A stretch of 64,000 nt of DNA from Promicromonospora sp. AC04 (lineage in GTDB: Bacteria; Actinomycetota; Actinomycetes; Actinomycetales; Cellulomonadaceae): contig NZ_QBUG01000002.1 in NCBI RefSeq assembly GCF_003058225.1, positions 62,001-126,000 on the forward strand. Reading direction: 5' to 3'. A program made the position numbers and the translations under genes. Positions within the stretch are counted from its first letter, which is position 1; each line of letters begins with the position of its first letter. The notes under the pieces are model-generated. The model saw only the letters and a program-made list of their open reading frames with translations. It ran no database searches and was not told the origin of the DNA. Below are positions 47,012-59,204 of this stretch, piece by piece.

Positions 47012-48961
47012 TCAGCCCACGTGCACGTGCGGGCGCAGCGCGCGGTCGGGCTGGGCCCGGCGGAGGACCTCGCGCGTGACGGGGGCGACCTCGCCCACGC
47101 CGAACAGCAAGAACCGCAGCAGGTTCGGCACCGGGTTGCCCTCGGTCCACTCGAAGTAGATGTGCGGCTTGACGCCCGTGTGCGCCTGGACGTGCAGGAG
47201 CAGCGCGGCCAGGCCGTTGGGAACGCTCGGCGCCTCCATGGTGATCACCCGGAACCGGCCGTCGCGGACCTCGCCGTGGGCCTCGACCACGGACTCGAAG
47301 TCCGAGGGGTCGGTGACGGTGACCTCGACGAAGATGATGTCGTTCTCGTCGGGCAGGTCGTTGTCCTCGACGATCTGCTCCACCTTGGCGAGGTACTCGG
47401 CGGTGTCGCGCTCCTCGGGCTCGTTGGCGACCAGGCGGATGCTGCGCCGGGCGCAGTCGCGCAGGAACGCCTCCGCACGGTGGTCGAGGACGACGTGCGT
47501 GGTGCGCAGCTCGAACGCGCGGGTGAGGCGGGAGGCCAGGGAGACGGCGACGATGGCGAGCACGAAGCAGGCGCCGATCTTGACGCCGTCGGGCCGCTCC
47601 ACGACGTTCACGGCGGTGGTGTAGAGGAAGATGACCGTGATGACCGCGAACGCCCACATGAGCCGGTGCTGCCCGGCGCGGCGCGCCGCCAGCGTGACCG
47701 CCACGCACGCGGACGAGAACAGCACCAGGACACCGGTGGCGTAGGCGCCGCCCTGCGCGTTGACGTCGGCGTCGAAGATCCAGGTGATCAGGAAGGCGAT
47801 GGCGGTGATGACCACGACCAGCGGCCGCACCGCCGCCGTCCACTCGGGGGCCATGCCGTAGCGCGGCAGGTACCGCGGGATGAGGTTGAGCAGGCCGGCC
47901 ATGGCCGACGCCCCGGCGAACCACAGGATCGCGATGGTCGACACATCGTAGACGGTGCCGAACCAGTCGCCCAGGTACTGGTGCGCCAGGAACGCGAGCG
48001 CCCGGCCCGACGCCGCCCCGCCGTCCTGGAACTCCTCGGCCGGGATGAGCCACGTGGTCACGACGCTGCTCGCCAGGAGGAAGCAGCTCATGGTGATCGC
48101 CGCGGCCGTGAGGAGCTTCTTCGTGTTCCGGATGCGGCCGGCGGGCCGGGCCTCCGTATCGCCCGGGTCGCCCTTGACGTGGGTCATGACCGCTACGCCC
48201 GTCTCGAAGCCGGACATACCCAGTGCCAGCTTGGGAAAGACGAGCAGGGCGAGCGCGACGATCATGACCGGGTTGCCGTGCTGCGTGATGAGCGCCGTGG
48301 ACCAGGCGGTGATGACGAACGGCTCGGCGACGACGTGCACCAGCGAGACGGCGATCACCACGACGTTCAGGGCGAGGTAGACCGCGACGATCGCGACGGC
48401 CACCCCGATCGCCTCGGTGAACCCGCGCAGGAAGACCGCGCCGAGCAGGGCGATCAGGCCCAGCGTGATCCACATCTCGCCACCGTGGAACAGTTCCGCC
48501 ACGTGCGGGTTCTCGACGACGTGCGCGGCGCCGTCGGCGGCGGACAGGGTGATCGTGATGACGAAGTCGGTAGCGGCGAAGCCCAGCAGGACCAGCACGA
48601 ACAGCTTGCCGTTCCAGAAGGTGAGGAGCCGCTCGAGCATGGCGATCGAGCCCTGGCCGTGCGGGCTCTCGGCGGCCACCCGGCGGTAGACGGGCAGCGC
48701 GCCGAGGAGGGTGAGCGCCACGAGCACGAGCGTCGCCACCGGGGAGAGCAGCCCTGCGGCTACCGCCGCGATCCCTGGCTGGTAGCCAAGCGTGGAGAAG
48801 TAGTCCACGCCCGTCAGGCACATGACCTTCCACCACGAGTGGGTCTTCTCCGGCTCACGCTGGTCGGCGTGGGGCCCCAGATGCTCTGGCCGCTGAGGTC
48901 CGTCGGCGAGGAGCCAGGTGTTGAGCCGGCTCAGGAGCGGGGCCGAAGTGCGCGCATTCAC
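47012..48961 (-). CDS. APC-superfamily permease with large cytoplasmic domain
   Basis: 649 residues from GTG 48961. The first conserved block is [24 protein letters not shown] (in segments), then [20 protein letters not shown], an [16 protein letters not shown] loop, and ten to twelve helices, with a C-terminal soluble domain of about 180 residues ([39 protein letters not shown]). This layout is that of APC permeases often called amino-acid transporters, but it also parallels KimA-like potassium importers. An 18-bp site shared with the kdp promoter lies exactly 42 bp upstream, supporting a potassium role. No SD is visible. Confidence 0.88.
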
Positions 48962-49002
48962 TGGCTGAGTCAAACAGAGGTGCCGGGCACCTTGGCGCGG
49001 CT

Positions 49003-49020
49003 TTAACGGAACCTTGACGC
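49003..49020 (-). promoter_or_regulatory. KdpE-type direct-repeat site upstream of the APC permease
   Basis: Plus strand TTAACGGAACCTTGACGC. On the minus strand it reads as two CGTCAA/CGTTAA words 11 bases apart. It matches the kdp site at 59187-59204 at 15 of 18 positions, in the same orientation and at the same distance (42 bases) from the start codon. OmpR-family regulators bind such direct repeats. Confidence 0.75.
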
Positions 49021-49121
49021 CAATCGCAGCTTGTCTCGTCCGCTCCACGCGAACGACCGTGGTCGCAGGCAGTCCGTAACCAGACCGTCCGACGCCGTTC
49101 GCCCTATACGGTTGCGGCGTG

Positions 49122-50081
49122 ATGCAACACCTGCGTGTGGTCAGCCCGTCCGCGACCACTGCCGACGTCGTGGACCTGTTGAAGTCCAGCCCCGCCGCGA
49201 CCAACGTGGTGGTGCTCCCTGACTGCGCGGTCGACCCGCCGGGCGACGTCGTCATGGCCGACATCGCACGCGAGGCGCTCCACCCGATCCTGGACCGGCT
49301 GACCGACATGGGCCTGCACCGCGAGGGCTCCCTTGCGGTGGAGGCGGTGGACACCTCACTGTCACAACACGCCACGCGCGCGGAGGACGCCGCCCCCGGT
49401 CTCTCGGAGGACGCGCTCGTGTGGCACGAGGTCGTGGACCGCACGGAAGCCGAGTCGCGCACCTCGCTGGGTTATCTCGCCCTCATGGCCCTGGCCACGA
49501 CCATCGGCATGATCGGCGTCCTGTTCGACCAGCCGATCCTCGTCGTCGGCGCCATGGTGGTCGGCCCCGACTTCGGCCCGCTCGCCGCGATCTCGGTAGC
49601 TCTGGTCGGACGGCGCTGGCGCACTGCCGGGCGCGCCGTGGCCACGCTGGCGGCCGGGTTCGGGGCCGGCTTCGCGGCGTCGGTCGTCATGGCCCTGCTC
49701 CTGCAGGCGTGGGGCCTGGCCGACCAGGCGACACTGCTGGCCGACCGGCCGCAGACGTCGTTCATCTGGGCACCCGACGCACTGAGCTGGGTGGTCGGCG
49801 CCCTCGCCGGGGCGGCCGGCATGATCTCGCTGACCACTGGCCGGTCCGGCGTCCTCGTGGGCGTGCTCATCTCCGTGACCACGGTCCCGGCCGTGGGCAA
49901 CGCCGCCGTCGCGCTCGCCTACGGCGTCGGCGAGGAGACCGTGGGCTCGCTGGCCCAGTTCGCCATCAACGTCACCATGATCGTGGCCGGCGCGGTGCTG
50001 TGCCTCGTGATCCAGCGCACCTGGTGGCGCTTCCAGGGAAGGTCCGCCGCCCACCGTGCCATGGTGACGAGCGACCGGTAG
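49122..50081 (+). CDS. DUF389 membrane protein
   Basis: 319 residues from ATG 49122 (GTG 49119 is adjacent). A soluble N-terminus of about 110 residues with [23 protein letters not shown] (in segments), then the DUF389 membrane core: [68 protein letters not shown]389 proteins have unknown activity and are thought to act in stress or lipid contexts. A TATACG -10-like word close to the start suggests a short leader. It shares the divergent region, and thus possibly KdpE control, with the APC permease. Confidence 0.88.
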
Positions 50082-50213
50082 CCGTCGATCAGCGGCATCG
50101 CCCGCTCTGCGGAGCCCGGCGTCGCGATGCTGCTCGTGAAGGTTCCAGCGCTCGCGTGGGATCACCGTGAGCGCCACCATGATGGGAAACTTGACGTAGA
50201 GGTGGGGAGCAGC

Positions 50214-50987
50214 ATGACCGGAAGCGTCTCGGCATGGCCTCAAGCGGCGTGGTGGCGTCCGTCAGTGCGGGTGACGGCGGTGCTGGCACCACTGCTGGCT
50301 TGCGCGATCCTGTCGACGGTCCGCGACGATGTCACCGCTGCGACGTCGGTGCTGGTCCTGGTCGTGCTGGTCGTGGCTGCCGCGGCCACCGGTGACCGGC
50401 CGGCCGCCCTCCTCGCCGCATTCTCGGCAGGGGCGTGGTTCGACTTCTTCCTCACCGAGCCGTACTTGCGCTTCACCATCGCCGACGCCGACGACATCGA
50501 AGCGACCGTTCTTCTCGTCGTGATCAGTCTTGTGGTGACGGAGATCGCTCTGTGGGGGAACCGTCAGCAACGACGAGCTGCCCGGCGCTCCGGCTACCTT
50601 GCGGGAGTGCTTGGCGCCGCACGCGCGGCGGCCGAGGGCATGCCCAGAGAAACGGTGATCGATCTCGTCGCACGTCAGATCACCGACGTGCTCGGCGCTG
50701 ACGACTGCACCTACGTCGTGGGCCCGGTGCGAGACACGCGCAACGCCGTCCTGGACCAGGACGGCGTCCTGACCCGGAACGGTCGTGCGGTCGACGTCGA
50801 TCGTGTCGGTCTGCCGACCGACGAGTACATCGCCGTCCTGGTGCGTCGGGGCCCTGAGGTCATCGGCCACTTCCTGGTCACCGCGGTGTCGAGCTTGACC
50901 TTCGCGACTCGCGAACAACGATTGATCGCGGTCCTCCTGGCTGACCAGGTCGCCGCCGTGCGCGACGAAGGAAAAGCTACGACCTGA
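50214..50987 (+). CDS. KdpD-like DUF4118/GAF protein lacking a kinase domain
   Basis: 257 residues from ATG 50214 (GGGGAGC upstream). The membrane part has four short helices with the KdpD-type WFDFFLTEPYLRFTIADADD, followed by a soluble GAF-like domain (ETVIDLVARQITDVLGADDCTYVVG in segments; IGHFLVTAVSSLTFATREQ). No HisKA or HATPase is present, so it cannot phosphorylate KdpE by itself. It may dimerise with KdpD or bind its ligands. The kdpDE genes follow immediately, convergent with it. Confidence 0.85.
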   Translation: MTGSVSAWPQAAWWRPSVRVTAVLAPLLACAILSTVRDDVTAATSVLVLVVLVVAAAATGDRPAALLAAFSAGAWFDFFLTEPYLRFTIADADDIEATVLLVVISLVVTEIALWGNRQQRRAARRSGYLAGVLGAARAAAEGMPRETVIDLVARQITDVLGADDCTYVVGPVRDTRNAVLDQDGVLTRNGRAVDVDRVGLPTDEYIAVLVRRGPEVIGHFLVTAVSSLTFATREQRLIAVLLADQVAAVRDEGKATT

Positions 50988-51024
50988 CCATCGCCGGCGT
51001 GCCGGCGACCTCGAGGCGCCCGGG

Positions 51025-51744
51025 TCACTCCTCGAACCGGTACCCCGCCCCCGGGTGGGTGAGGATGTGGCGCGGGTGCGACGCGTCCTTCTCCAGCTTG
51101 CGCCGCAGCTGCGCCGTGTAGACGCGGAGGTAGTTGGTCTCCGTCGAGTACGCCGGACCCCAGACCTCGTGCAGCAGCTGCTTGCGGTCCACGAGCCGGC
51201 CGCGGTTGCGCACGAGCACCTCCAGCAGCGCCCACTCGGTCGGGCTCAGCCGCACGTCGGCCCCGCCACGCGACACCTGCCGCCGGGCCAGGTCGATCCG
51301 CAGCTCGCCCGCCATGACCACTGGCTCCTCCGACTGCGTCGGCAAGGCCCGGCGCACGGCGGCGCGCAGCCGCGCGAGCAGCTCGTTCATCGCGAACGGC
51401 TTGGTCACGTAGTCGTCGGCGCCGGCGTCGAGGGCGTCGACCTTGTCGTCGCCGAGCTGCCGGGCCGACAGCACCACTATCGGCACCCGGGTCCAGCCCC
51501 GGATCCCCTCGATGACGTCGAGCCCGGGCATGTCGGGCAGGCCGAGGTCGAGCAGCACCACGTCAGGCCGAGCCGACGCCACGGCGTCCAGCGCGGCCGC
51601 ACCCGTCGGCGCGGCCGTCACGTCCCAGCCGTGCGCTCGCAGGTTGATGGTCAGTGCGCGGGCCAGCGCGGCGTCGTCGTCCACCACGAGCACGCGGTTG
51701 CCGAACGCCGCCTGCTCGCCCTCGCCGTCCGACTCACCGGTCAC
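51025..51744 (-). CDS. kdpE: Response regulator KdpE
   Basis: 239 residues, GTG 51744. Receiver with DDD (acidic pocket), phospho-Asp in VVLLDLGLPDMPG, a Ser switch (VVLSARQ) and Lys in DYVTKPFAMNEL. The C-terminal OmpR-type winged helix includes LSPTEWALLEVLVRNRGRLVDRKQLL (in segments) and ETNYLRVYTAQLRRKLE, typical of KdpE. The adjacent kdpD, 44 bases upstream, forms the cognate pair. Likely targets are the two 18-bp sites at 49003 and 59187. Confidence 0.94.
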   Translation of the reverse strand: MTGESDGEGEQAAFGNRVLVVDDDAALARALTINLRAHGWDVTAAPTGAAALDAVASARPDVVLLDLGLPDMPGLDVIEGIRGWTRVPIVVLSARQLGDDKVDALDAGADDYVTKPFAMNELLARLRAAVRRALPTQSEEPVVMAGELRIDLARRQVSRGGADVRLSPTEWALLEVLVRNRGRLVDRKQLLHEVWGPAYSTETNYLRVYTAQLRRKLEKDASHPRHILTHPGAGYRFEE

Positions 51745-51788
51745 GGGACCATCCCATCACGCAACTACCCCCATCGCTCGAAACCACA

Positions 51789-54374
51789 TCACTCGGCGAC
51801 CACATCATCGGGGACCACATCATCGGGGGCCGCGTCCTCAGCAACCCGTTCGCGCGGCACCGTCAGCACCATCGTCAGGCCCCCTCCGGGAGTGTCCTCG
51901 GCCGCGATCCGCGCGCCGACGGCGGTCGCGAGCCCCGACGCCACGGCCAGGCCGAGGCCCAGGCCTCCTGTGCTGGTGTCGTCGAGCCGCTGGAACGGCT
52001 CGAACATGGTGGCCTTGCGGTCGTCGGGCACGCCGGGGCCGGTATCGGCGACGCGGAGCTCCACCGAGTCCCGCACGGCGGACGCCGTGAACAGCACCTT
52101 CGCGCCGGGCGGGGAGTGCCGCACCGCGTTGGAGACCACGTTCGCCACGACCCGCTCGAACAGGCCGGGATCGGTGTGCACGAGCGGCAGGTCCTCCGGT
52201 ACGTCCAGCGCGAGGTCGGACAGCCACGGCTCGACGGCGATCGGCACCACCTCCTCCAGGGACGCGGCACGCAGGGTCGGCCGCACCGCGCCGGTCTGCA
52301 GGCGGGACAGGTCCAGGAGGTTGCCGATGAGCCGCTCCAGCCGGTAGGTCGAGTCGGCGATCGTGGCCGTGAGGACGTCTCGGTCCTCCCGGTCGAGCTC
52401 GACGTCGGGTGAGCCGAGGCCGTCCACGGCCGTGCGGATCACCGCGAGCGGCGTCCGCAGGTCGTGCGAGACGGCGGCGAGCAGCGCGGTCCTGGTGCTC
52501 TCGGTCCGCTCCAGCACCTCGGCCTGCGCGGCCTGCTCACGCAGCCGCCGGTGCTCCAGCACGATGCCGGCCTGCGCCCCGAACGCCTCGACCACCTGCC
52601 GGTCGCTCGCCGGGAGCACCCGGCCGACGAGGACGAGCCGATGCAGGTCGTCGATCGCCACCTCGGTGACGCCCTCTCCCGAGCCGGCCGGTGTGGCGCC
52701 CGACCCCGCCCCGGATCCCGGTTCGGTAACCCATCTCTCGTGCGCCACCACGGTCCACGGCGAGCGGTCGTCGTCCCGCTCCTCGATGCGCACCTCGGCC
52801 ATCGCGAAGGTCTGCGCAAGTCGCTGCACGATCGCCTGCGCCGTGTCCTGCCCCGACAGCACGGAGCGGGACAGCGCGGCCAGCGTGGACGCCTCCGCGC
52901 GCGCCCGGTAGGCCTGGGTCGTGCGCCGCGCCGCAAGGTCGACCACCGAGGCGACGGCGACGGCGACCACCACGAACACGGCCAGGGCGAACACGTTCTC
53001 CGCCTCGGCGATCGTCAGGCGGCCCACCGGCGGCGCGAAGAAGTAGTTGAGGCACAGGTTGGACACGATCGCGGCCACGACCGCGGGCCACAGCCCGCCG
53101 ATCAGCGCCACCCCGACCACGCCCGCCAGGAGCAGCATGGCGTCCGTGGCCAAAGCCACGTCGCCCCTGCCGATCAGCAGCAGACCGGTCGTCAGGACCG
53201 CGGGTACCACCAGGGACGACCCCCAGCCCGCCGCCCGGCGGGCTGGTGACAGCGACGAGTACCGCGAGCGCACACCAACGCCGCCACGCGCCTGCTCGTG
53301 TGTCACCAGGTGCACGTCGATAGTGCCGGACAGCCGCGCGATCTCCGCGCTCGACGAGCCGAGAAGCGCCTGCCGCCACACGGGGTGCCGGGACACGCCC
53401 ACCACGATCATCGTCGCGTTGACCCCGTGCGCGAAGTCCACGACGGCGGTCGGCACGTCCTCGCCCACCACAGTGTGGAACACGCCGCCGAGCGACTCGG
53501 CGAGCGCGCGGTGGGCTGCGATGGTGGCCGACGGCGTCGACGGCAGCCCGTCGGTGGGCAGCACGTGCACCGCGAGCAGCTCGGTGCCTGCGGCCCGCTG
53601 GGCGATGCGCGAGGCCCGGCGCAGCAGCGTCTCCGTCTCCGGACCGCCGGTGACGGCCACCACTATGCGCTCGCGGGCGGGCCACGTGCCGCCGATCGCG
53701 TGGTCGGCGCGGTACCTGGTCAGGGCGTCGTCGACGCGGTCGGCGAGCCACAGCAGGGCGAGCTCGCGCAGCGCCGTCAGGTTCCCGACGCGGAAGAACG
53801 ACGACATCGAGGCGTCGATCTGCTCCGCCCGGTAGACGTTGCCGTGCGCGAGCCGGCGCCGCAGCTGCTCCGGGGAGAGGTCCACGAGCTGGATCTGGTC
53901 CGCCTCGCGCACCACCTTGTCGGGCACCGTCTCACGCTGCCGGACGCCGGTGATGGCCTCGACGTCGTCCGTCAGCGACGCGAGGTGCTGCACGTTGACC
54001 GTGGTCACCACGTCGATACCCGCGTCCAGCAGGTCGTGCACGTCCTGCCAGCGCTTCGGGTGCTCCGATCCCGGGGCGTTGGTGTGCGCGAGCTCGTCCA
54101 CGAGCGCCACCTCGGGCGCGCGCCGCAGCACGGCCTGGACGTCGAGCTCGGTGAGCGTGGTCCCGCGGTGCTCGACGAGCCGCCGCTGGAGCATCTCGAG
54201 ATCGCCGATCCGGTCGATCGTCGCGGCCCGGCCGTGCGTCTCCACGAGACCGATCACGACGTCGGTTCCCCGCGCGCGGCGCCGGTGCGCCTCGTCGAGC
54301 ATGCCGTAGGTCTTGCCCACGCCCGGGGCCGCCCCCAGGTAGACGGTGAGGCGGCCCCGGCGTCCGGTGGTCAT
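51789..54374 (-). CDS. kdpD: Potassium/turgor sensor kinase KdpD
   Basis: 861 residues from ATG 54374 (ATG 54392 and ATG 54431, which overlaps kdpC, are alternatives). N-terminal KdpD domain with VYLGAAPGVGKTYGML (Walker A) and LVDELAHTNAPGS; a universal-stress-like domain; four membrane helices (LVVPAVLTTGLLLIGRG; LLLAGVVGVALIGGLWPAVV; NLCLNYFFAPPVG; FALAVFVVVAVAVASVVDL); GAF; HisKA with AAVSHDLRTPLAVIRT; HATPase with NAVRHSPPGAKV, ADTGPGVPDD and GGLGLGLAVA. It senses low potassium, and in other bacteria c-di-AMP or ions may act on its N-terminal part. Confidence 0.94.
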   Translation of the reverse strand: MTTGRRGRLTVYLGAAPGVGKTYGMLDEAHRRRARGTDVVIGLVETHGRAATIDRIGDLEMLQRRLVEHRGTTLTELDVQAVLRRAPEVALVDELAHTNAPGSEHPKRWQDVHDLLDAGIDVVTTVNVQHLASLTDDVEAITGVRQRETVPDKVVREADQIQLVDLSPEQLRRRLAHGNVYRAEQIDASMSSFFRVGNLTALRELALLWLADRVDDALTRYRADHAIGGTWPARERIVVAVTGGPETETLLRRASRIAQRAAGTELLAVHVLPTDGLPSTPSATIAAHRALAESLGGVFHTVVGEDVPTAVVDFAHGVNATMIVVGVSRHPVWRQALLGSSSAEIARLSGTIDVHLVTHEQARGGVGVRSRYSSLSPARRAAGWGSSLVVPAVLTTGLLLIGRGDVALATDAMLLLAGVVGVALIGGLWPAVVAAIVSNLCLNYFFAPPVGRLTIAEAENVFALAVFVVVAVAVASVVDLAARRTTQAYRARAEASTLAALSRSVLSGQDTAQAIVQRLAQTFAMAEVRIEERDDDRSPWTVVAHERWVTEPGSGAGSGATPAGSGEGVTEVAIDDLHRLVLVGRVLPASDRQVVEAFGAQAGIVLEHRRLREQAAQAEVLERTESTRTALLAAVSHDLRTPLAVIRTAVDGLGSPDVELDREDRDVLTATIADSTYRLERLIGNLLDLSRLQTGAVRPTLRAASLEEVVPIAVEPWLSDLALDVPEDLPLVHTDPGLFERVVANVVSNAVRHSPPGAKVLFTASAVRDSVELRVADTGPGVPDDRKATMFEPFQRLDDTSTGGLGLGLAVASGLATAVGARIAAEDTPGGGLTMVLTVPRERVAEDAAPDDVVPDDVVAE

Positions 54375-54399
54375 GTCTTCAGTCTGCGGCATTTCCGCG

Positions 54400-55044
54400 C
54401 TACTCGGTCGCCGCACCACTGTCCGCGGCATCGAGGGCCAGGTTGAGCTCCAGGACGTTCACCCGCGGCTCGCCCAGCACGCCCAGGTCGCGCCCGGCGG
54501 TGTGCTCCGCCACGAGGGCCTCCACGTCGGCGTCGGACAGGCCGCGCGCCTTGGCGACCCGCGCCACCTGGATGGCCGCGTACTCAGGGCTGATCTGCGG
54601 GTCCAGGCCCGAGCCCGACGCCGTGACGGCGTCAGCCGGCACGTCGGCGGGGTCCACACCCTCCTCCTCGGCGACCGCGGCCTTGCGCTCCTCGATCGTC
54701 GCCACCAGGTCGGGGTTGAGGGGCCCCAGGTTCGACCCGGCGGAGGCCAGCGTGTCGTACCCGTCGCCCGCTGCCGACGGCCGCGGGTGGAAGTACTCCT
54801 CGCCCGTGAAGCCCTGGGCGATGAGCGCGGAGCCCACCGCATCGGAGCGCGAGGTGGTGCGGGCGCCGTCGGCCTGGACGAGCGAGCCGTTGGCCTGCCA
54901 GGGGAAGGCCACCTGCCCGACGGCGGTCATCGCGAGCGGGTAGGCCAGCCCCGTCACGAGGGTGAAGGCGAGCAGCATGCGCAGCCCGGCCATCGAGTGG
55001 CGGGTCAGCGTCGCGAGGTCGCTCGCCACTGTTGTCGTTGCCAT
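54400..55044 (-). CDS. kdpC: Potassium-transporting ATPase subunit KdpC
   Basis: 214 residues. Single N-terminal helix ([19 protein letters not shown]), then the KdpC body with [28 protein letters not shown] (in segments), [27 protein letters not shown] and [28 protein letters not shown] (in segments). It stabilises the KdpFABC complex and increases ATP affinity. Spaced 34 bases after kdpB and tightly followed by kdpD. Confidence 0.96.
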
Positions 55045-55078
55045 GTCAGTTCCTTTCTCAGCCGATGCGAGGGCCGGG

Positions 55079-57252
<2,174 letters not shown>

Positions 57253-57256
<4 letters not shown>

Positions 57257-58920
57257 GACAGGGACTCCACGATGGGACCGAGGGAAAGTACGGGGATGAA
57301 GGTGAGCCCGACGACGACGAGCGCCACGGCGCCCACCAGGCCCACGAACAGCGGCTGGTGCGTCGGCAGGGTGCCAACGGTCGCGGGCACCGACTTCTGG
57401 CTCGCCAGCCGGCCGGCGAGGGCCAGCACGAGGGCGATCGGGATGAACCGCCCGGCGAGCATCGCCAGGCCCTGCGTCACCTCGTAGAACGGGGTGCCGG
57501 TGGTCAGGCCGCCGAACGCCGAGCCGTTGTTGTTGGCCGCCGACGCGTACGCGTACAGCACCTCGGACAGGCCGTGCGGACCCGACTCCTGGATACCCAC
57601 GAGGCCCGGCTCGACGACGACGGCGATCGACGTGCCCACCAGGATCAGCGCGGGCACCGTCAGCACGTACAGCGCGACCAGCGTCATCTCCTGCCGGCCG
57701 ATCTTCTTGCCCAGGTACTCGGGCGTGCGGCCCACCATGAGGCCCGCGATGAACACCGCGACCACGGCCAGGACGAGCATGCCGTACAGCCCTGCGCCCA
57801 CCCCGCCCGGCGAGACCTCGCCCAGCAGCATGTTGAACAGGACGACACCTCCGCCCGGCGCCGTGAACGAGTCGTGCATGGAGTTCACCGCGCCTGTCGA
57901 CGTCGCCGTCGTCGCGGCCGCGAACAGGGCGCTGCCGGCGAGCCCGAACCGGGTCTCCTTGCCCTCCATGGCGGCGCCCGCCGCCTGGGGCGCCGCGCCC
58001 GGCCCGGCCAGCTCGGCCCAGGTGGCGAGCGCTACCGACACGGCGAACAGGCCGGCCATCACGCCCAGGATCGCCCAGCCCTGGCGCTTGTCGCCGACCA
58101 TGATGCCGAACGTGCGGGGCAGCGTGAACGGGATGAGCAGCAGCAGGAAGATCTCGACGATGTTCGTGAACGGTGTCGGGTTCTCGAACGGGTGCGCGGA
58201 GTTCGCGTTGAACGGGCCGCCACCGTTGGTGCCGAGCTCCTTGATGGCCTCCTGGGAGGCGATCGGGCCGCCGAGCGCGTGCTGCGTGGCGCCCTCGACA
58301 GTGGTGAGCGCGGTGTGCGGGTCGAGGTTCTGGATCACGCCGCCGGCGATGAGCACGATCGCCGCTACCACGGACAGGGGCAGCAGGATGCGGATCACGC
58401 CGCGGGTCAGGTCGGACCAGAAGTTGCCGATGCGGGCGTCGGTCCCGGAGCGGGCGAAGCCGCGCACCAGGGCGATCGCGACAGCCAGGCCCACGGCCGC
58501 CGAGACGAAGTTCTGCACGGCCAGCCCGGCCATCTGCACCAGGTGGCCAGCGGCCGCCTCGCCCGAGTACCACTGCCAGTTGGTGTTCGTGGTGAAGCTG
58601 ACCGCGGTGTTCCAGGCGCCGGCCGGGTCGAACCCGGTGAAGCCGAGGCTCAGCGGCAGGTACGCCTGCAGGCGCAGCATCCCGTAGAGGAAGAGGACGG
58701 AGACGAGCGAGAAACCCAGCAGGGACATCAGGTAGGTGGTCCAGCGCTGCTCGGCGTCCGGATCCACGCGGACCGCGCGGTACCAGAGGCGCTCGACCCG
58801 CAGGTGCTTGGGGCTGGTGAAGGTGCGCGCCATGTACGCGCCGAGCGGCGCGTGCACGGCGGCGAGGGCGGCGACCAGGACGAGGATCTGCGCCACTGCC
58901 ATGAGGACTGCGGTGTTCAC
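57253..58920 (-). CDS. kdpA: Potassium-transporting ATPase subunit KdpA
   Basis: 555 residues, GTG 58920. Ten-helix channel-like subunit derived from four M-P-M repeats. Filter-related motifs include [34 protein letters not shown] and [10 protein letters not shown], all expected in KdpA. It conducts K+ from the outside into the complex. It starts seven bases after kdpF. Confidence 0.97.
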
Positions 58921-58927
58921 GGTGTGA

Positions 58928-59020
58928 TCACCGCGTCCGGTCGGCGCGGATCAGCGCGACGAAGAGGTATACGAGGCCGGCGAGGGTAAGCACCAGGCCC
59001 ACGGCGTCGAACGGGTTCAT
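58928..59020 (-). CDS. kdpF: KdpF single-helix stabilising subunit
   Basis: 30 residues: [20 protein letters not shown] followed by VALIRADR. One transmembrane helix plus a short basic tail, the size and pattern of KdpF, which stabilises the KdpABC complex. GGAGGCGGAG directly precedes the ATG. Its start overlaps the stop of the upstream small ORF. Confidence 0.9.
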
Positions 59021-59145
59021 CTCCGCCTCCCCTGAGGGTCGACGGAGTCGCGCGTGGCGGGCTCGTGCGTTGCGGCGCGACGCGCCACCACGGCCACCGC
59101 GGCGAAGAACACCACGGTCAGGAGGATGAAGGCCAGATCGGTCAT
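59017..59145 (-). CDS. Small membrane protein leading the kdp operon
   Basis: 42 residues: MTDLAFILLTVVFFAAVAVV is one transmembrane helix, followed by a basic tail (ARRAATHEPATRDSVDPQG). ATG 59145; its stop TGA overlaps the kdpF ATG (ATGA), so it is translationally coupled to the kdp cistrons. The 18-bp KdpE-type site lies 42 bases upstream, making this the first gene of the operon. Small ORFs in this place are present in other actinobacterial kdp operons to my recollection, but no function is known. Confidence 0.8.
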   Translation of the reverse strand: MTDLAFILLTVVFFAAVAVVARRAATHEPATRDSVDPQGRRR

Positions 59146-59186
59146 GCCACTGGTCTACGCCGGTGCGCGACCCGTAGAAGCGGTCC

Positions 59187-59204
59187 TTGACGGAATGTTG
59201 ACGC
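59187..59204 (-). promoter_or_regulatory. KdpE-type direct-repeat site of the kdp operon
   Basis: Plus strand TTGACGGAATGTTGACGC; on the minus strand, two CGTCAA words 11 bases apart, one helical turn. Located 42 bases upstream of the first kdp ORF and near-identical to the site at 49003-49020. A KdpE (OmpR-family) operator is the simplest reading. Confidence 0.8.

Follow-up and report, generated by a model that had tools for sequence, protein, structure and literature searches.

The window analyzed here, a stretch of 64,000 nucleotides from Promicromonospora sp. AC04 (contig NZ_QBUG01000002.1, positions 62,001 to 126,000), carries a kdp potassium operon, the gene for the response regulator KdpE and a gene for an APC-superfamily permease, and this work concerns two similar 18-mers that lie upstream of the kdp operon and the permease gene. 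The kdpE gene is encoded together with kdpD and kdpFABC (kdpB, kdpC and kdpF being assigned by gene order), and clear Pfam matches were obtained for KdpA, KdpD and KdpE. Both PF00072 and PF00486 (receiver and winged-helix Trans_reg_C domains) were over cut-off in KdpE. The top NCBIfam model for this protein was KdpE, under its curated cut-off (231.6 vs 325 bits), and for the kdpD product it was KdpD, yet again under cut-off (507.7 vs 1123 bits). As a likeness to the Escherichia coli KdpE-kdpFABC system (PMC3264566), the conserved R193 of E. coli KdpE has its equivalent in R207 of the window protein, with arginine at this position in 46 of 47 orthologs and a gap in the remaining one; this arginine has been reported as conserved in KdpE orthologs only. 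A free-standing 286-amino-acid DUF4118 protein (50127-50987, plus strand) adjoins kdpE on the opposite strand, and DUF4118 also occurs in KdpD.

Table 1 Coordinates of the two candidate operators and of the genes and promoter elements around them
Feature	Position in window	Strand	Remarks
APC-superfamily permease P0001, 649 amino acids, predicted KimA-like K+ importer	47012..48961	-	frame open from GTG 48961
-10-like hexamer TTGACT	48968..48973	-	12 bases 5' of GTG 48961, predicted leaderless start
Predicted KdpE operator of permease gene, GCGTCAAGGTTCCGTTAA	49003..49020	-	two CGTYAA half-sites, 11 bp phase; kept in relatives
kdpE, OmpR-family response regulator	51025..51744	-	N204 and R207 in recognition helix
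kdpD sensor kinase	51789..54431	-	KdpD, Usp, DUF4118, HisKA and HATPase_c domains
kdpC	54400..55044	-	open frame; named from gene order between kdpB and kdpD
kdpB, start codon not settled	55079..57225	-	open frame between kdpA and kdpC; named from gene order
kdpA	57253..58920	-	family scan (Pfam)
kdpF, 30 amino acids	58928..59020	-	translation; named from position and size
42-amino-acid one-helix peptide, first gene of kdp operon	59017..59145	-	open frame
-10-like hexamer TAGACC	59152..59157	-	12 bases 5' of ATG 59145, predicted leaderless start
Predicted KdpE operator of kdp operon, GCGTCAACATTCCGTCAA	59187..59204	-	motif kept in relatives

The permease and kdp 18-mers, TTAACGGAACCTTGACGC and TTGACGGAATGTTGACGC (gene-strand forms in Table 1), differ at 3 of 18 positions. 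When the sequence was re-read, the initial annotation held in its description of the pair: matching at 15 of 18 bases, in shared orientation, with kdpE encoded between them and each composed of two CGT(C/T)AA words in 11-base phase. The distances to the gene starts were recounted and proved equal, at 42 bases to both GTG 48961 and ATG 59145.

Exact matches to CGTYAA-N5-CGTYAA numbered three in the 6.85 Mb genome, two of them the window sites, with one match for a reversed-pattern control; the third (C14:72769), viewed by its open reading frames only, is taken as chance, in agreement with the control count. A looser grammar, YRTNAA-N5-YRTNAA, was derived from mapped KdpE sites of E. coli and Mycobacterium smegmatis and chosen with the window sites and both published sites already in view. 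The minimal site required by M. smegmatis KdpE, CCGTAAAGAAACCATCAAGGCC (PMC5401905), fits it directly, and the T-rich E. coli half-sites TTTATA/TTTACA, with 5 bp between them (PMC3264566), differ in fitting only on the opposite strand, where they read TATAAA/TGTAAA. Within the window the grammar has exactly two matches, which are the two sites, against a mean of 0.05 in 100 dinucleotide shuffles, none of which reached two. Simple identity to the 22-mer of M. smegmatis was rejected as a selector, since it fails to distinguish the window sites, which scored 15/22 and 14/22, from an unrelated place with 16 and five others with 14. The M. smegmatis authors reported no noticeable similarity of their site to other KdpE motifs (PMC5401905). 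A grammar shared with mapped KdpE sites appears more telling than the rarity of the pattern alone.

The initial annotation had suggested looking for the motif upstream of kdp and APC-permease genes in relatives, and it was common at both, far over the reversed control. The comparison set comprised 119 genomes of the order, with permease relatives in 18, KdpA in 42, a KdpD sensor domain over cut-off in 40 and KdpE orthologs (E 1e-58) in 46. At up to two mismatches, CGTYAA-N5-CGTYAA was found in 31 of 50 kdpA upstream regions, including the window's own (reversed pattern, 1/50), and in 67 of 95 regions upstream of permease relatives (reversed, 3/95). A wider form, CGTYAR-N5-CGTYARG, was present in 77 of 98 permease promoters with the window excluded (control, 7/98), and a distant permease group in the order (at most 57% identity) carried the motif in 3/8 rows, compared with 6/10 for closer relatives. 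Genome-wide searches of the comparison set gave 14 matches to CGTYAA-N5-CGTYAAGA (control, 2), of which seven lay at kdp, four at permeases, one at a kimA beside kdpE and two elsewhere. The strict form CGTYARG-N4-CGTYARGA gave 35 matches (reversed control, 6), and within 600 bp downstream of these lay kdpA in 16 cases, a permease in five and a kdpE-linked kimA in two. Three individual sites are recorded alongside these counts. A strict operator-like site in the Promicromonospora genome itself (C1:1098521; L309:14540), about 50 bases before the ATG of a frame with a match to an ABC transporter ATPase, may be a chance occurrence; beside a VTT-domain frame (L123:7570-7630, G049 C118) lie two operator-like sites, one of them mismatched, at a spacing of about 42 bp; and in G005 an operator occupies the gap between a permease and a divergent TrkH-type K+ transporter (L116:8901-8961).

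Genomes lacking parts of the kdp system were informative about which partner the motif follows. Three (G005, G024 and G041) have permeases, no KdpA and no KdpD sensor domain, yet the motif was observed at a permease in each: at both copies in G005 (one 442 bases upstream), with one mismatch in G024 and at one of two copies in G041. All three encode a KdpE ortholog with 57-59% identity, the next best match in each reaching at most 43%, and its partner is a histidine kinase that matches KdpD in the C-terminal part only and is without PF02702. In a fourth genome with a permease, G073, neither a KdpE ortholog nor the motif was found. G023 and G030 gave no match to KdpA, and in both the motif precedes a KimA relative followed by a kinase of the PF02702-lacking type and KdpE; the G023 relative matches PDB 6s3k at 3.5e-116, and the G030 copy is 71% identical to it. 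KimA relatives occur in 94 of the 119 genomes (E 1e-100). Among the 30 kimA copies with DNA examined, an upstream motif (at most two mismatches) was present in three (reversed control, 1/30), and these are exactly the kdpE-adjacent ones (G023, G030 and G015), with none in the other 27; linkage was judged from coordinates, and in G015 the kimA-side motif points to a divergent kinase-kdpE pair. The KimA relative of the Promicromonospora genome (C7:383251-385185), a gene separate from the window permease, is without an operator. These distributions support a motif that tracks kdpE rather than a transporter family.

The recognition stretch of 47 KdpE orthologs was next set against the operator at kdp, kimA or permease. 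Ten genomes were dropped (G034, whose match did not cover the helix, seven without an operator at one mismatch or fewer, and G040 and G114 with no operator region in the set), which left 37 genomes from 23 genera for the association test, with mixed half-sites (at least one half A) scored as A. Of 223 columns, residue 204 showed the strongest association with the sixth base of the operator (eta squared, eta2, 0.70), followed by columns 199 (0.54) and 201 (0.50), both in the stretch just before it. Asparagine or glutamine at residue 204 occurred with A in 18 genomes, and histidine, glycine or threonine with G in 18, leaving one discordant genome (G060); the corresponding operator forms are CGTYAAG and CGTNAGG. 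Residue 204 aligns with H190 of E. coli KdpE, the neighbor of Y191, and the PhoB equivalent of Y191 has been described as contacting bases. The rule was drawn mostly from kdp promoters. At permease operators it fits 11 of the 12 named loci encoding KdpE together with a permease, the other being mixed: four of five asparagine loci (Streptomyces and Streptacidiphilus) are A/A and one is mixed, and all seven glycine loci (Nocardioides and relatives) are G/G. The permease operators of these loci were already known when the rule was formed; their KdpE residues were not. Taken as sequence evidence, the restriction of the motif to kdpE-adjacent copies among the 30 kimA genes and the agreement between helix and operator at permease promoters appear to be the strongest points for KdpE as the regulator.

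The spacing between operator and start codon also recurs. Counted from the first C of the motif, an ATG or GTG was found at +57/58 in 16 of 61 direct operators, including the window's two, and random offsets averaged 3.8 and never exceeded 11 over 2000 draws; part of the 16 coincidences will be chance. A -10-like hexamer peaked at +45 (10 of 61 direct operators; mean 0.58 per offset) and again at +77 (8 of 61), and the latter peak would fit promoters with a second operator about 32 bp closer. A doubled arrangement, with a second operator-like pair offset by about 32 bp (close to three turns of the helix), was seen in several kdp promoters, among them L052, L054, L056, L058 and some Streptomyces loci (L139, for instance). 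The equal 42-base spacing in the window is likely explained by leaderless transcription, and the spacing does support both start calls, as the initial annotation had held. The hexamers TTGACT and TAGACC are weak -10 boxes, and the window layout is predicted to be that of a leaderless promoter with KdpE at the -35 region.

Two other readings of the sites were rejected. The reading as -35 boxes of divergent promoters was set against the equal distance that the sites keep to two minus-strand genes, and at 49003 no fitting -10 was seen in the divergent direction, as judged by eye. In Bacillus, KimA is controlled by a cyclic di-AMP riboswitch; the window differs in that no Rfam family reached the gathering score, and riboswitch control was set aside. 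The permease operator sits in the intergenic stretch that the permease shares with a divergently oriented gene for a DUF389 membrane protein (49119-50081, plus strand), about 100 bases from the start of the latter gene, and TATACG lies shortly 5' of its GTG.

The permease gave no Pfam or NCBIfam family match and no PDB sequence match in single-sequence or profile searches. A sequence-profile search returned no match to KimA, K_trans or AA_permease_2, and pairwise BLASTP against KimA gave E 0.66. Alignment to the KimA family with hhalign produced a probability of 91.6 (E 8e-7). An AlphaFold model was weak (predicted local distance difference test, pLDDT, 59.6; predicted template modeling score, pTM, 0.53), and the top three Foldseek PDB matches of this weak model were all KimA (E 1e-8 to 1e-7, template modeling score, TM, ~0.4), making Bacillus subtilis KimA (PDB 6s3k; PMC6994465) the nearest fold to the modeled permease despite the lack of a detectable family match at the sequence level. 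D36 and Y43 are described as essential in KimA, with T121 and S125 also K+-site residues (PMC6994465), and permease D53, Y60, T136 and S140 align with these four and were invariant in two alignments (14/14 and 25/25 rows). The position of KimA D117 holds aspartate in 7/14 rows of one alignment and 25/25 of the other, and the proton-coupling E233 aligns with permease E253 in pairwise BLASTP and not in hhalign. The family has at least 586 confirmed stretches, and no Pfam match above E 0.1 was found in 14 of 14 members scanned. The term "KimA-like" used in the initial annotation applies only to the predicted fold and to key residues, not to sequence matches in Pfam, NCBIfam or PDB; from the structural model and the conserved residues, the protein is predicted to be a K+ importer that works like KimA, not filed as KimA.

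Overall, we think it probable that the two 18-mers are operators at which phosphorylated KdpE activates the kdp operon and the KimA-like permease gene from leaderless promoters, with low K+ raising both importers. From the observed sites, with their rarity, conservation and tracking of both kdpE and the KdpE recognition helix, we infer that a phosphorylated KdpE dimer would bind the paired CGTYAA half-sites, in 11-bp phase, at a position that overlaps the -35 region or lies directly 5' of it. The dimer would activate two promoters, one for the kdp operon and one for the permease, whose transcripts would begin at the start codon or a few bases from it. Low potassium would then produce a joint rise of the high-affinity ATPase pump and of another importer, probably coupled to protons, with K+ as its predicted substrate. 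Promoter conservation, the tracking of kdpE and recognition-helix covariation all support KdpE as the reader of both sites, as the initial annotation had proposed.

Several observations weigh against this interpretation. With up to two mismatches allowed, CGTYAA-N5-CGTYAA shows almost no enrichment in the window (9 found vs 6.0 expected), and a longer 18-mer pattern at up to three mismatches gave 16 genome matches vs 13 for the control, although the window's two have no mismatches and the remaining 14 have three each. Twelve of the 35 strict matches in the comparison set fall elsewhere, no operator at one mismatch or fewer was found in 7 of 39 kdpA regions of KdpE-bearing genomes, and the motif is absent from 21 of 98 permease promoters. 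Where it was found at permeases, 17 of the 77 sites are direct and 60 inverted relative to the gene, 51 of the inverted ones coming from Streptomyces (51 of 63 Streptomyces rows); the link between motif and permease is, judging by these promoters, common and not universal, and its orientation has shifted during evolution. On the KdpE tree, only three independent contrasts fell on supported branches (two agree, none oppose, one tie; sign test, p 0.5), and the residue-base covariation is accordingly support, not proof, with shared ancestry a possible source. E. coli KdpE is an exception to the rule, having histidine at the equivalent residue and A-rich half-sites. Finally, the M. smegmatis kdp transcript is described with a 120-nt leader and a SigF-type promoter (PMC5401905), unlike the leaderless model.

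In the OmpR family, direct repeats with a phase near 11 bp are widespread, and another of its members (MtrA, PhoP and GlnR are examples) might read the sites with kdpE a mere neighbor. The genome offers room for this, with 17 matches (KdpE itself among them) in a KdpE search at E 1e-30 or better, but we regard it as improbable, given the confinement of the motif among 30 kimA copies to the three beside kdpE, the operator base that tracks the KdpE helix residue, and the lack of a motif in G073, where a permease occurs without a KdpE ortholog. It is very improbable that the kdp site alone is a genuine KdpE operator and the permease site a chance or decayed, functionless copy. The 21 permease promoters without the motif and its varying orientation between genera would be expected on that account; the spacing identical to that at kdp, the rarity in the genome, the conservation of the motif before permease genes in Nocardioides, Streptomyces and relatives, and the agreement of half-site bases with the KdpE of the same host in 11 of 12 loci would not.

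A question of a different kind, compatible with KdpE control, is whether the permease is co-regulated with kdp and carries another substrate, such as an amino acid or another cation, for osmotic balance. Many APC-superfamily members carry amino acids, the permease has no sequence-profile match to KimA, and the genome has a separate KimA-family gene. This option is possible and still doubtful, as the top three fold matches are KimA and all four KimA-equivalent residues are invariant. A potassium-importing permease under KdpE control remains the interpretation that we favor.

Among the closest known systems is KdpE-kdpFABC of M. smegmatis, in which an actinobacterial KdpE exerts positive control of kdp at low K+, as proposed for the window, through half-sites CGTAAAG...CATCAAG in 11-bp phase upstream of kdp; these depart from CGTYAAG-N4-CGTYAAG at two positions, and the words permease and KimA are absent from the main text of that paper (PMC5401905). 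The Propionibacterium acnes kdp operon is described as being raised ~100-fold by K+ downshift, the difference being that only kdp is presented there as a KdpE target (PMC3848588), and KdpDE is stated not to have been analyzed in any Streptomyces model (PMC10117811). For actinobacteria, no connection between KdpE and either this permease family or KimA was seen in the titles and abstract openings surveyed from the open-license literature, a weak negative. The regulator is a known one, and the extended regulon proposed for it did not turn up in the literature searched.

More broadly, we lean slightly toward a model in which actinobacterial KdpE regulates a potassium regulon beyond the Kdp pump. 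The importer would vary between lineages, being kdpFABC, a member of the KimA-like permease family or an extra copy of kimA, and so would the sensor, with KdpD-like kinases that lack the KdpD sensor domain in some; the operator would follow the recognition helix by the residue-base rule, and many of the promoters would be leaderless with one fixed geometry. If true, actinobacterial KdpE would have targets beyond kdp, a permease family with many relatives and no Pfam match would gain a likely function in K+ import, and KdpE specificity would become testable through one helix residue. Lineages of this kind would also represent a natural experiment, in which the targets of a two-component system are retained although its best-known sensor domain and target operon have been lost.

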